Origin: Flagellimonas oceanensis
Lineage (GTDB): Bacteria > Bacteroidota > Bacteroidia > Flavobacteriales > Flavobacteriaceae
Reading direction: 5' to 3'
Assembly (NCBI RefSeq): GCF_003992595.1
Contig: NZ_RZNA01000052.1
Coordinates: forward strand, 186,001-250,000
DNA: 64,000 bases
In this document: positions 6,101 to 31,007 of the stretch, in pieces
How the letters are laid out: each line of letters begins with the position of its first letter
How positions within the stretch are numbered: position 1 is the stretch's first letter
Program-made: the position numbers and the translations under genes
Notes under the pieces: model-generated
Told to the model about the DNA's origin: nothing
Seen by the model: only the letters and a program-made list of their open reading frames with translations
Databases searched by the model: none

Positions 6101-6141
6101 TGACATTTTGACATTTTTGGACAATTGGCAGTACTTTTGCC
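6101..6141 (+). promoter_or_regulatory. grpE-dnaJ control region: TGACA-N3-TGACA plus -24/-12-like element
   Basis: TGACATTTTGACA lies at 6101-6113. TTGGCAGTACTTTTGCC at 6125-6141 fits the sigma-54 consensus (YTGGCA, N6, TTGC) with GG and GC twelve bases apart. The element centre (6107) is 20 bp from the first G of the GG. An alternative reading is a housekeeping promoter, since TACTTTTG (6132-6139) matches TAnnTTTG with TTTTG at 6106-6110 as the -33 element. The same element and the same 20-bp spacing recur upstream of hsp20. Confidence 0.55.
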
Positions 6142-6169
6142 ACTTCAAATCGGAATAAAACAATAGAAC

Positions 6170-6745
6170 ATGAGCAATAAAAGTAAGGTTGAGGAAATGG
6201 AAGATGAGCCTAAAAAAGGGCAAACCGAAGAGAGTACTGAGCTGAACGATGAGCATATAGAGGCTGAAAACGCAGAAGAGAATAAAGAGGAACTTTCCGA
6301 AGAGGAAAAATTGCGCGAGGATTTGGCCAAAGAAAAAGAAAAGTTCTTGAGGCTTTTTGCGGAGTTTGAAAACTACAAGCGCAGGACTTCCAAGGAACGT
6401 ATGGATTTGTTCAAAACTGCAGGACAGGAAGTCATGGTGGCATTGCTTCCCATTATGGATGACTTTGATCGTGCCCTCAAGGAACTTTCCAAGTCAGAGG
6501 ATAAAGAAATGTTCAAAGGTGTGGAACTCATCAGCAATAAATTCAAGGAAACTTTGAAGAACAAGGGCTTGGAGCAAGTGGAAGTGGGGGAAGGTGATGT
6601 ATTTGATGCCGAGGTGCACGAAGCCATTACCCAGATCCCTGCACCGAATGATAAAATGAAAGGGAAGATCATTGATGTGGTGGAAAAAGGGTTCAAACTC
6701 GGCGATCGCATCATAAGGCATCCAAAAGTCGTTGTTGGAAACTAA
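6170..6745 (+). CDS. grpE: Nucleotide exchange factor GrpE
   Basis: Co-chaperone (191 residues) that releases ADP from DnaK. The N terminus (to about residue 50) is highly acidic and probably disordered. A long coiled coil follows, then the family core LRLFAEFENYKRRTSKER and the C-terminal beta domain with FDAEVHEAITQIP and the typical ending VVEKGFKLGDRIIRHPKVVV. dnaJ begins 6 nt after the stop, so the two form an operon; dnaK is not in the window. The upstream region carries an element also found in front of hsp20 in this window, which suggests shared stress control. Confidence 0.96.
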   Translation: MSNKSKVEEMEDEPKKGQTEESTELNDEHIEAENAEENKEELSEEEKLREDLAKEKEKFLRLFAEFENYKRRTSKERMDLFKTAGQEVMVALLPIMDDFDRALKELSKSEDKEMFKGVELISNKFKETLKNKGLEQVEVGEGDVFDAEVHEAITQIPAPNDKMKGKIIDVVEKGFKLGDRIIRHPKVVVGN

Positions 6746-6751
6746 AGTTGT

Positions 6752-7873
6752 ATGAAGGAAGATTATTACGAAATATTGGGAGTCTCCAAAGGGGCTTCAG
6801 CTGCAGAAATTAAAAAGGCCTATAGAAAAAAGGCCATCAAATATCACCCGGATAAAAATCCAGGCGATGCCAAAGCTGAGGAAATGTTCAAGAAATCCGC
6901 TGAGGCATACGAAGTGCTGGGCAATCCTGACAAAAAGGCAAAGTATGATCAGTTTGGCCATGCAGCCTTCGATGGTAGCGGCGGATTTGGCGGCGGAGGT
7001 ATGAATATGGACGATATCTTCAGTCAATTTGGTGATATTTTCGGCGGCGCCTTTGGTGGCGGTGGCGGATTCAGTGGGTTTGGCGGATTTGGTGGCGGAC
7101 AGCGCAGGGCCAAAGGAAGCAATCTTCGAATCCGAGTTAAGTTGACCCTCGAAGAAGTGGCCAATGGTGTGGAGAAGAAAGTCAAGGTAAGACGTAAGCT
7201 TCAAGCGGACGGAGTGACTTATAAAACGTGTCCCACTTGTAACGGTACCGGTCAAATCACAAAAATCACTAACACCATATTGGGTAGAATGCAGACTGCA
7301 ACCACCTGTACCACATGTGGTGGGGCTGGGCAGGCTATTGATAAAAGACCTGCAGGGGCCGATGCACAGGGACTTCAGGTGGAAGAAGAGACCGTATCCA
7401 TTAAAATACCACCAGGTGTGGAAGATGGCATGCAGTTGAAAGTGAGTGGTAAAGGGAACGATGCCCCAGGAAACGGTATTGCCGGGGATCTGTTGGTGGC
7501 TATTGAAACCTTAGAGCACGATACGCTCAAGCGTGAAGGTGATAACCTGCATTATGATCTGTACATAAGCATGCCCGAAGCGGTTCTGGGAAGCTCCAAA
7601 GAAATCGATGCCATAGGCGGAAAGGTCAGAATAAAATTGGAGGCTGGTTTACAGTCCGGAAAAATTTTAAGGCTTCGAGGCAAAGGGATCAACAGTCTTA
7701 ACGGGTATGGAGCAGGAGATTTGTTGGTGCATGTAAATGTATGGACACCAAAGAACATCAATAAGGAGCAAAAGGAATTTTTTGAGCGCATGCAAGACGA
7801 TGACAACTTTGTCCCAAGGCCCGAAAAATCAGATAAATCCTTTTTTGAGAAGGTAAAAGATATGTTCTCTTAA
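6752..7873 (+). CDS. dnaJ: Chaperone DnaJ with a reduced zinc-finger region
   Basis: Hsp40 co-chaperone (373 residues) that delivers unfolded clients to DnaK and triggers its ATPase. The J domain spans residues 3-68 with HPD at 32-34. A Gly/Phe-rich linker runs to about residue 117, and the C-terminal client-binding domains and dimerisation tail are intact. The cysteine-rich region has only two CxxCxGxG repeats (Cys160/163 and Cys186/189), where most type I DnaJ proteins have four, so at most one zinc centre can form. The spacer between them is the usual size for one pair, so this looks like a clean loss rather than a frameshift. The gene follows grpE and ends in a strong terminator. Confidence 0.96.
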
Positions 7874-12128: not shown

Positions 12129-13292
12129 ATGTCAAAAATTTTGGTAATAGAAGATGAATCGGCAATTAGAAGGGTTTTGGTGAAAATACTGGCCGAAGAA
12201 AGCGATAGTTACAATGTAGTTGAGGCTGAGGATGGCCTTGCGGGAATGGATATCATCAAAAAAGAGGATTTTGACCTGGTGCTGTGCGATATCAAAATGC
12301 CAAAGATGGATGGTGTTGAGGTTTTGGAAGCTGCCAAGAAAATAAAACCCGAGATACCCTTTGTCATGATTTCTGGACATGGTGATTTGGATACAGCCGT
12401 GAACACCATGAGACTGGGAGCCTATGATTATATTTCCAAACCACCGGATTTGAACAGGTTGCTGACAACTGTTCGCAATGCCTTGGAAAGAAAGGAGCTT
12501 GCTGTTGAGAACAAAGTGCTCAAGAAAAAGGTCTCCAAGAATTATGAAATGATCGGCGATAGCAAGGAGATAGATGCCATCAAGGATATGATAGAAAAAG
12601 TGGCACCCACCGATGCCCGGGTGTTGATCACAGGCTCCAACGGAACAGGAAAGGAATTGGTGGCCCATTGGGTACATCAAAAAAGCCCACGATCATCCGC
12701 ACCCTTCGTTGAGGTCAATTGTGCCGCTATTCCTTCGGAATTGATAGAAAGTGAGTTGTTCGGTCATGTGAAAGGAGCTTTTACCTCTGCGGTAAAAGAC
12801 CGGGCAGGTAAGTTTGAAGCTGCCAACAAGGGAACCATATTTTTGGATGAGATTGGCGATATGAGTCTGTCCGCACAGGCGAAGGTACTCCGTGCATTAC
12901 AAGAGAACAAAATCAGCCGTGTGGGCTCTGATAAGGACATTAAAGTGGATGTTCGGGTGCTTGCGGCAACGAACAAGGATTTGAAAAAGGAAATTGAAGA
13001 GGGAAAGTTCCGTGAGGACCTATACCATAGATTGGCTGTTATATTGATTAAAGTTCCTTCACTGAATGACAGGCGGGACGATATTCCATTATTGATAGAA
13101 CATTTCGCCAAAAAAATAGCATCTGAGCAAGGAACAGGCGAAAAGAGTTTCTCCAAAAAGGCCATAAACCTGCTCAAAAGTTACGATTGGACAGGAAATG
13201 TCCGTGAACTTCGCAATGTGGTGGAACGATTGATCATTCTCGGTGGCAAGGAAGTATCCGAAGAAGATGTAAAGCTATTTGCCAGTAAGTAG
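12129..13292 (+). CDS. Sigma-54-type (NtrC-like) response regulator lacking a DNA-binding domain
   Basis: 387 residues. The receiver domain (1-120) has the phospho-acceptor Asp54 in CDIKMPKMDG, the acidic pair near residues 8-10, and Lys104. The AAA+ domain (about 140-370) has Walker A GSNGTGKE (169-176), the sigma-54 contact loop GAFTSA (216-221) and Walker B IFLDEIGD. The protein stops soon after the AAA+ lid (NVVERLIILGGKEVSEEDVK), with no Fis-type helix-turn-helix, unlike most NtrC relatives. The gene is intact, so this is a genuine domain architecture. It must act from solution, through a partner, or in concert with another DNA-binding activator. It follows the DUF6268-like gene by 10 nt. 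No cognate histidine kinase is adjacent. Confidence 0.92.
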   Translation: MSKILVIEDESAIRRVLVKILAEESDSYNVVEAEDGLAGMDIIKKEDFDLVLCDIKMPKMDGVEVLEAAKKIKPEIPFVMISGHGDLDTAVNTMRLGAYDYISKPPDLNRLLTTVRNALERKELAVENKVLKKKVSKNYEMIGDSKEIDAIKDMIEKVAPTDARVLITGSNGTGKELVAHWVHQKSPRSSAPFVEVNCAAIPSELIESELFGHVKGAFTSAVKDRAGKFEAANKGTIFLDEIGDMSLSAQAKVLRALQENKISRVGSDKDIKVDVRVLAATNKDLKKEIEEGKFREDLYHRLAVILIKVPSLNDRRDDIPLLIEHFAKKIASEQGTGEKSFSKKAINLLKSYDWTGNVRELRNVVERLIILGGKEVSEEDVKLFASK

Positions 13293-30063: not shown

Positions 30064-30465
30064 ATGGGTACTTACAAGGAAAAATTGAGCATTCTTTCGG
30101 AGATGATCGGCTTTGCTAGAGTTGATCATTCCCTGAAACAGTCCGAATATGAATTTTTGTTGAAAGTGGCCCAGAATTTAGGGGTAAGCAAAGATGTTTT
30201 TGACGGATTGTTAAAGGAGAAATCCCCCAAAGTTCGCCTAAAGACACAAGCAGAACGCATTGTGCAATTCCATAGACTTATTTTGCTCATGAACGTGGAT
30301 CATGAACAGCATAAAAAAGAAATCAATACACTTTATAATATTGGACTCAATATGGGCTTACCACCAGCCGCAATCAGTCAGGTGTTGGAAATAATGCATC
30401 GCTATCCCAATAAAATTGTCCCTCCCGATGTGCTCATTAATATCTTCAAGGCACATTACAACTAA
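30064..30465 (+). CDS. TerB-like helical protein
   Basis: 133 residues, all helical, resembling the TerB (tellurite resistance B) superfamily: an acidic-to-basic helix pattern with FARVDHSLKQSEYEFLLKVA, where TerB proteins often have a D-G-x2-DxxE metal site; here only part of that site (DHSLKQSEYEF) remains. Function unknown, cytoplasmic. No other ter genes are nearby. Single gene, about 115 nt upstream of hsp20 on the same strand; the intervening region carries the hsp20 control elements rather than a terminator. Confidence 0.65.
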   Translation: MGTYKEKLSILSEMIGFARVDHSLKQSEYEFLLKVAQNLGVSKDVFDGLLKEKSPKVRLKTQAERIVQFHRLILLMNVDHEQHKKEINTLYNIGLNMGLPPAAISQVLEIMHRYPNKIVPPDVLINIFKAHYN

Positions 30466-30538
30466 TGTCAAAATGACATCTATTTTTTCTTGAATCATGT
30501 CAAATAGACATGGTTTTTCCATTGGTACAGGTTTTGAC
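30465..30538 (+). promoter_or_regulatory. hsp20 control region: two inverted repeats and a -24/-12-like element
   Basis: Perfect inverted repeat ATGTCA-N3-TGACAT at 30465-30479, and CATGTC-N5-GACATG at 30496-30512. Then TTGGTACAGGTTTTGAC at 30522-30538, resembling a sigma-54 promoter with GG at -24 but GA in place of GC at -12. The second repeat is centred 20 bp from the first G of GG and the two repeats are 32 bp apart. No TAnnTTTG box is present. Compare the grpE upstream region. Confidence 0.6.
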
Positions 30539-30581: not shown

Positions 30582-31007
30582 ATGAGTATAGTAAAAAGAA
30601 ACAACCTGTTTTTTCCATCCTTGATGAACGATTTTGTAAGTCCTGATTGGTTCGGTGGAACAGAAAAGTGGAATGCTTCCATGCCCGCTGTGAACATAAA
30701 GGACAATACCGAAGGATTTGAATTGGAACTTGCGGTTCCAGGTATGAAAAAAGATGATTTTACTGTGGAAATCGACAACGATGTGTTGACCATTTCCAGC
30801 GAAGTGAAATCCGAGAACGAGGAAAGCAACGATAATTATACACGAAAAGAATTCTCTTATTCTTCGTTCAAAAGAGCTTTTACACTACCAGAAACCGTAG
30901 ATGGATCTAAAATCGATGCCAAGTACGAGGATGGGGTGTTGAAATTGACTTTGCCCAAAAAACAAGAGGCATTGCCAAAACCAAAAAGATTGATTGAGAT
31001 AGGGTAA
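30582..31007 (+). CDS. Small heat-shock protein (Hsp20/alpha-crystallin family)
   Basis: ATP-independent holdase (141 residues) that binds unfolding proteins during stress. The alpha-crystallin domain covers about residues 36-130: MPAVNIKDNTEGFELELAVP, MKKDDFTVEIDNDVLTIS, and the family GVLKLTLPK box near the end. The N terminus (NNLFFPSLMNDFVSPDWFGG) has the usual aromatic client-binding motifs. It lies behind paired inverted repeats and a -24/-12-like element, and ends at a strong terminator. Monocistronic. Confidence 0.95.
   Translation: MSIVKRNNLFFPSLMNDFVSPDWFGGTEKWNASMPAVNIKDNTEGFELELAVPGMKKDDFTVEIDNDVLTISSEVKSENEESNDNYTRKEFSYSSFKRAFTLPETVDGSKIDAKYEDGVLKLTLPKKQEALPKPKRLIEIG

Follow-up and report, generated by a model that had tools for sequence, protein, structure and literature searches.

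Heat-Shock Promoters in the Window

Two sets of heat-shock genes, grpE-dnaJ and hsp20, lie on the forward strand of the window, the stretch of 64,000 nucleotides of the Flagellimonas oceanensis genome analysed here. Each is preceded by a sigma-54-type -24/-12 box and, farther upstream, by a spaced element of the form TGNCA-N3-TGNCA, which we treat as a candidate operator and which is present in two copies at hsp20 (Table 1). The reading frame 3' of grpE has a translation that matches the gene following grpE in two reduced symbiont genomes (G131 and G141), and is likely dnaJ, the gene after grpE in the same operon. From the usual distance to the -12 region, we predict that transcription of grpE-dnaJ starts near position 6152.

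Table 1. Coordinates of the promoter elements and genes at the two heat-shock loci (window positions) and of the candidate activator gene (contig positions).
Feature	Position	Strand	Remarks
Proximal candidate operator of grpE-dnaJ	6101..6113	+	TGACATTTTGACA, TGNCA-N3-TGNCA form, centre 20 bp before first G of -24 box
Sigma-54-type -24/-12 box of grpE-dnaJ	6125..6140	+	TTGGCAGTACTTTTGC
grpE	6170..6745	+	Pfam GrpE 5e-40
dnaJ	6752..7873	+	From the ORF list; name from the earlier note
Distal candidate operator of hsp20	30466..30478	+	TGTCAAAATGACA, perfect dyad, centre 52 bp before first G
Proximal candidate operator of hsp20	30498..30510	+	TGTCAAATAGACA, centre 20 bp before first G
Sigma-54-type -24/-12 box of hsp20	30522..30537	+	TTGGTACAGGTTTTGA, GA replacing GC
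hsp20 (small heat-shock protein)	30582..31007	+	Pfam HSP20 1.3e-26
Candidate activator, 426 aa	G000:C45:85776-87056	-	One of six strong PF00158 matches

An earlier note on this DNA had described the shared promoter architecture, and a re-reading of the window found the promoter sequences it quoted for grpE and hsp20 in place. The distance of 20 bp that it gave from the centre of the nearest element to the first G is exact (6107 to 6127 at grpE and 30504 to 30524 at hsp20), the second hsp20 element does lie 32 bp farther upstream than the first, and the -12 of hsp20 has GA instead of GC, as it had cautioned. The gap within the box, which it gave as N6, has been corrected to N4, so that the box reads TTGGYA-N4-TTTTGM. 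The element TGWCA-N3-WGACA has four matches in the window against 0.49 expected, a number reached in 3 of 100 shuffles; the four matches correspond to three places, one perfect dyad being counted on both strands. A TerB-like reading frame (30064-30465) stops immediately before the distal hsp20 operator, which therefore begins right behind a stop codon.

A Predicted Chaperone Regulon Across the Genome

On its own, the element (TGWCANNNWGACA) is weak evidence, because its counts in the whole genome (9 forward and 4 reverse matches) are near those of the control (5 and 7). The composite of element and box, in the motif of the earlier note with N4 and at most 3 mismatches, has four matches in the 4.27-Mb genome against 1 forward and 0 reverse for the control. 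These are grpE, hsp20, and two sites that had no part in making the motif, directly 5' of reading frames that we take, from their protein starts, to be htpG and clpB. The composite is also present, with 4 and 5 mismatches, at dnaK and groES, which were located by family search and by gene order, respectively. A refined motif, allowing at most 2 mismatches, has seven matches in the genome and 0 and 0 in the control, six of them at grpE, hsp20, dnaK, groES, htpG, and clpB; because this motif was fitted to those six promoters, only its specificity and its control count as independent. The seventh match lies inside a long reading frame and was not counted as a promoter.

The six host promoters align without gaps, with 20 bp between operator centre and first G in each. 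The GG and GC spacing of a sigma-54 promoter is complete at grpE and groES, while hsp20, htpG, clpB, and dnaK have GA in place of GC. The genome contains one rpoN match (PF04552, 1.7e-51), the gene whose presence the earlier note had wanted checked, and the spaced composite, rather than being scattered at random, falls at chaperone operons in six of seven cases. The suggestion that heat-shock chaperones of this lineage may be run by sigma-54 and an AAA+ activator thus gains support from the presence of rpoN and from the composite at six chaperone operons. At L022:2447-2646, upstream of a lon-like gene, a box resembling that of sigma-54 promoters, ATGGCACAGGAATTGC, lies some 142 bp from the gene start, with no clear operator.

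Coordinate control of groESL, dnaK, grpE, clpB, and hsp20 is a trait that this gene set shares with the HrcA/CIRCE and RpoH systems, the common arrangement in other bacteria. That HrcA or an RpoH-like sigma factor is in control here is nonetheless barely conceivable, and we rejected both: the six host promoters differ from those systems in having neither CIRCE nor a good sigma-32 promoter, as no CIRCE (TTAGCACTC-N9-GAGTGCTAA) occurs within 6 mismatches in the 270-310 bp searched at any of them, and the closest sigma-32-like matches, those at hsp20 and dnaK, have 3 mismatches. The reduced genomes G131 and G141 each have one CIRCE-like place at 4 mismatches, which is not at any of the chaperone starts examined there.

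Published Sigma-54 Promoters of Chaperone Genes

In Flavobacterium psychrophilum, 5'-end RNA-seq places the starts of groESL, dnaK, grpE-dnaJ, htpG, clpB, and lon at sigma-54-type (SM4) promoters, according to the available part of that report (PMC9723704), so the sigma-54 part of the arrangement was already known there. The promoter class is the same as in our host at groESL, dnaK, grpE-dnaJ, htpG, and clpB; the account differs in that its available part mentions neither TGTCA nor a palindrome, and it predicts three sigma-54 activators and assigns none of them (PMC9723704). An in silico survey, likewise available in part, finds predicted sigma-54 promoters enriched at GroEL, GroES, GrpE, DnaJ, DnaK, and IbpA in Bacteroidota and Planctomycetota, most strongly in Flavobacteriia, and in that part assigns no enhancer site or activator (PMC12316311). 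Searches of PMC7366714 and PMC12596196 by term turned up nothing relevant. Within the one literature library searched, we found no operator, activator, or autoregulation described for these chaperone promoters and no named heat-shock regulator for Bacteroidota. Sigma-54 control is therefore the known part, and the candidate operator and activator, the phasing, the probable self-control, and the symbiont evidence are what we add.

The Operator at grpE and groES of Relatives

Thirty genomes were chosen for grpE; the gene was not located in one (L216), and 27 of the 29 upstream stretches have an acceptable -24/-12 box, the two without being G395 and G340. Of these 27 promoters, 20 match TGNCA-N3-TGNCA in 7 or all 8 of its fixed letters when the element is placed at -26 or -27 relative to the first G, and offset -26 has the highest mean score among all offsets tested (4.73 vs 2.0, sd 0.57). 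The same offset stands out at groES, with a mean of 5.24 vs 1.98 (sd 0.68) for 25 usable genes among the 80 named loci listed. Here the downstream half-site is the better kept: TGWCA lies exactly at -18 in 17 of 25 promoters, and the upstream half-site is degenerate in most loci. An exact double half-site, present in 6 of 25 windows, is too strict for groES, and offset scoring was used for that reason.

Seven grpE promoters (L206, L208, L212, L227, L231, L215, and L217) do not reach 7 of 8. For L208, a wrong box at the edge of the fragment had been picked, which allows no score, and another box there scores 7/8; in L231, an exact operator pair lies two turns farther up, near 40 bp. In L215 and L217, both of family f21, the operator at grpE is arranged differently, with GTGGCATTATATTTGC and, farther up, one GAATGWCA.

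The grpE promoter of the host can also be read as a housekeeping promoter (TACTTTTG, with a TAnnTTTG -7 box), a fair caveat of the earlier note, and ordinary housekeeping promoters with an incidental -24/-12 likeness would account for such a reading. Among relatives, a TAnnTTTG box at the housekeeping position is kept in 6 of 27 grpE promoters and not in the other 21, against TGGCA at -24 in 23 of 27, a count to be read with the bias of a box finder that gives preference to TGGCA and TTG. In rpoN-less relatives, the chaperone promoters examined no longer have the operator, and the F. psychrophilum starts, in the available part of that work, map to SM4/sigma-54 motifs (PMC9723704). We consider control by housekeeping promoters alone extremely unlikely and rejected it in favour of sigma-54 promoters.

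A TGCCAGC...GCTGGCA hairpin followed by T's precedes groES in L031 (on the reverse strand) and in several of L114-L126. TGACA or TGTCA often occurs within this hairpin, which sits about 30 bp above the proximal half-site and may serve both as the terminator of secG and as a distal operator.

Spacing and Helical Phase

In 18 grpE loci of symbionts, the distance from operator centre to first G is 21 bp in 13, 20 bp in 3, and 19 bp in 2. Longer distances are found at groES, with 50-52 bp in 13 and 40-42 bp in 3 of the 20 symbiont regions; the distal hsp20 element of the host, at 52 bp, falls into the first of these classes. Single genomes give 21 bp at grpE of G141 and 31, 41, and 51 bp at groES of G131, G395, and G141, respectively. 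The larger spacings thus differ by whole helical turns, as would be expected if the bound protein must sit on one face of the helix.

Sigma-54 activators usually bind some 80-150 bp upstream of the promoter, which is a habit and not a strict criterion. The centre of the candidate operator lies 19-52 bp before the -24 box and so outside that range, and a distance of 20 bp from -24 is far shorter than that of activator sites in textbook cases, which counts against our proposal.

A Sensor-Less Candidate Activator in the miaB-groESL Cluster

The genome has 13 matches to PF00158, six of them strong (E<1e-66). One of the six lies in the gene order miaB, activator, lptE, 296-aa protein, secG, groES, groEL (we take the neighbours to be these genes; the names are not those of an annotation). 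The protein consists of the AAA+ domain (PF00158, 6.8e-67), a lid, and a C-terminal Fis-type HTH (HTH_8, PF02954, 2.7e-11); Pfam detects no sensor or N-terminal regulatory domain, and the AAA+ part begins at residue 13. Among the best 30 matches to this protein, 28 have a GAFTGA or GSFTGA loop and two are unmatched by the regular expression. The linker between AAA+ and HTH contains a conserved stretch around residues 282-301, whose pattern matched 69 of 82 proteins; in an AlphaFold model of moderate quality (mean pLDDT 66.7), the linker is predicted, at low confidence, to be helical. At E <= 1e-60, and with paralogues counted, each of the 118 phylum genomes matches the activator; within the order, 284 of 296 genomes do so at 1e-40.

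The five other strong matches are of another kind. Four of them (L001, L002, L003, and L005) contain a response-regulator domain by Pfam, and the fifth, L004, has a receiver-like start before its AAA+ part, in a sequence that holds masked letters. L001, encoded at window positions 12129-13292, is a response-regulator sigma-54 activator beside a DUF6268 gene. The existence of these five, one of them 4 kb downstream of dnaJ, is the argument for a response-regulator type activator, such as L001, driving the chaperones. Against it, Pfam finds no DNA-binding domain or HTH in L001, on which ground we rejected this protein, and small genomes keep a single activator match (E<=1e-40), which is the miaB-cluster protein in the three genomes checked. 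We regard control by one of the other activators as very unlikely, and the best candidate is the sensor-less sigma-54 activator of the miaB-groESL cluster.

The Operator Upstream of miaB

The upstream regions of miaB in 30 usable named loci carry the operator with all 8 fixed letters in 27 cases and with 7 of 8 in the other three. A TAnnTTTG housekeeping box follows an operator in 25 of the 30, at 16-21 bp downstream in 22 and at 10 bp in 3, and the host itself has TGCCATATTGTCA-N18-TATCTTTG upstream of miaB. Over loci L114-L175, the 12.05 kb of miaB and groES upstream windows contain 44 operators, and the other 613.8 kb contain 12. The miaB sites account for 27 of the 44; the remaining 17 lie in groES windows, where several sit in the hairpin before groES and not at -26.

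No -24/-12 box was seen in the miaB-side stretches of the symbiont regions examined, so the operator before miaB, judged from sequence, probably acts in repression. The gene order suggests that miaB and the activator form one operon, and a site standing before the cluster of an activator is what one would usually expect of the operator that the regulator itself binds. More than one promoter may serve the cluster, as the available part of the F. psychrophilum RNA-seq report maps an SM5-type start immediately 5' of the activator gene (PMC9723704). No operator was seen within the Bacteroidales loci L136, L148, and L157-L159, and in L141 and L161 one was located some 1.75 kb beyond the start of the activator. 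The contig of L121, labelled Rhizobium sp., has the flavobacterial order miaB-activator-lptE-secG and is probably mislabelled or contaminated.

PspF of the psp system is a sensor-less AAA+ activator with a Fis-type HTH that serves a stress regulon and represses its own housekeeping promoter. The candidate resembles it in having no N-terminal regulatory domain and in the apparent placement of its operator at its own housekeeping promoter, given the complete operators in 27 of 30 miaB regions. It is unlike PspF in its different operator, its cytosolic chaperone targets, and its spread over much of a phylum; moreover, the PspF site lies about 100 bp upstream, whereas the site of the candidate adjoins -24.

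Retention and Loss in Reduced Symbiont Genomes

Our sample of the order includes 50 genomes of family f44, of about 0.3 or 0.6 Mb, which appear, from their size and composition, to be Blattabacterium-like. All 47 that bear rpoN (45 of genus g101 and 2 of g96) have exactly one activator match (E<=1e-40), and in G131, G141, and G395 the activator sits between miaB and groES. The 45 genomes of g101 contain 128 exact sites (TGWCA-N3-TGWCA), 1 to 6 each, vs 19 for the reversed pattern. Among the 27 loci listed, 18 of the sites are at grpE, 4 at groES, 2 at miaB, and 3 elsewhere. In 20 symbiont regions that were chosen because exact sites had been listed there, a miaB-side site occurs in 19 of the 19 where miaB was found, and a groES site in 16 of 20.

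Single genomes give the same picture at finer grain. The three exact sites of G141 (629,662 bp) precede grpE, miaB, and groES; G131 (344,793 bp) has three, at grpE, at groES, and inside a reading frame; and G395 (317,200 bp examined) has one, at groES. At grpE of G395, no accepted box and no operator were seen, though rpoN and the activator are present, and in G131 and G141 the element is lacking upstream of clpB.

Three f44 genomes, G340, G355, and G400, have no rpoN match. The activator is absent from G355 and G400, and G340 has only a weak match to it (1.7e-41). Exact sites number 0, 0, and 1 in G340, G355, and G400, the one in G400 being inside a reading frame. In G400, miaB and groES are adjacent, the activator having gone from between them, and no element lies upstream of groES, dnaK, htpG, or grpE; likewise, none lies upstream of grpE in G340. 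The losses of rpoN, activator, and operator thus appear to run in parallel, but incompletely across the three genomes.

This pattern bears on who reads the operator. Lying near -45, it looks less like a remote enhancer than like an ordinary binding site of an activator or repressor, and another transcription factor, a repressor or co-activator, could bind there while the miaB-cluster activator works without binding it. However, symbiont genomes with a single activator match keep the exact operator mostly at grpE, groES, and miaB (24 of the 27 loci listed, and all three sites of G141), relatives without rpoN lack it at the chaperone promoters examined, and it stands before the activator's own gene cluster. 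We therefore hold a separate operator-binding factor to be unlikely and favour binding by the miaB-cluster activator itself.

Model of the Regulon

The regulon, the operator with its spacing, the co-retention, and the partial co-loss are legible in the genomes compared. On this basis, we are fairly confident that the host has a sigma-54 chaperone regulon whose operator would be bound by a self-repressing activator encoded in the miaB cluster. We propose the following steps:

(i) The core chaperone operons (grpE-dnaJ, hsp20, dnaK, groESL, htpG, and clpB) would constitute one sigma-54 regulon, in which each promoter combines a -24/-12 box with TGNCA-N3-TGNCA centred 20 bp upstream (about position -45), on one face of the helix.

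(ii) The Fis-type HTH of the sensor-less AAA+ activator would recognise the operator, and the bound activator would remodel the closed complex of the sigma-54 polymerase into the open complex.

(iii) A basal amount of activator would be made from a housekeeping promoter, which the activator would repress at miaB in a PspF-like negative loop.

(iv) Under stress, the activator would open the chaperone promoters. We guess that the activator is held back by a chaperone or by some other factor that senses damage, perhaps via the conserved linker, which is predicted to be helical.

From the evidence above we infer operator binding, activation, repression at the activator's own promoter, and stress sensing. 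With less assurance, we lean towards a broader reading, in which heat-shock control across much of Bacteroidota would have had this single self-repressed, sensor-less activator as its ancestral master regulator, working from a helix-phased operator beside -24, and in which chaperone control would be the one job that keeps the sigma-54 system in minimal symbionts. For the heat-shock response of Bacteroidota, the model names a single candidate gene and a single operator, delimits a regulon, and includes an autoregulatory loop; it would also suggest why rpoN and one activator are retained in genomes of 337 and 345 kb. It offers, besides, a case in which an activator site seems to act close beside the polymerase and from a single face of the helix. 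The three rpoN-less genomes, G340, G355, and G400, are useful natural controls for sigma-54 function.
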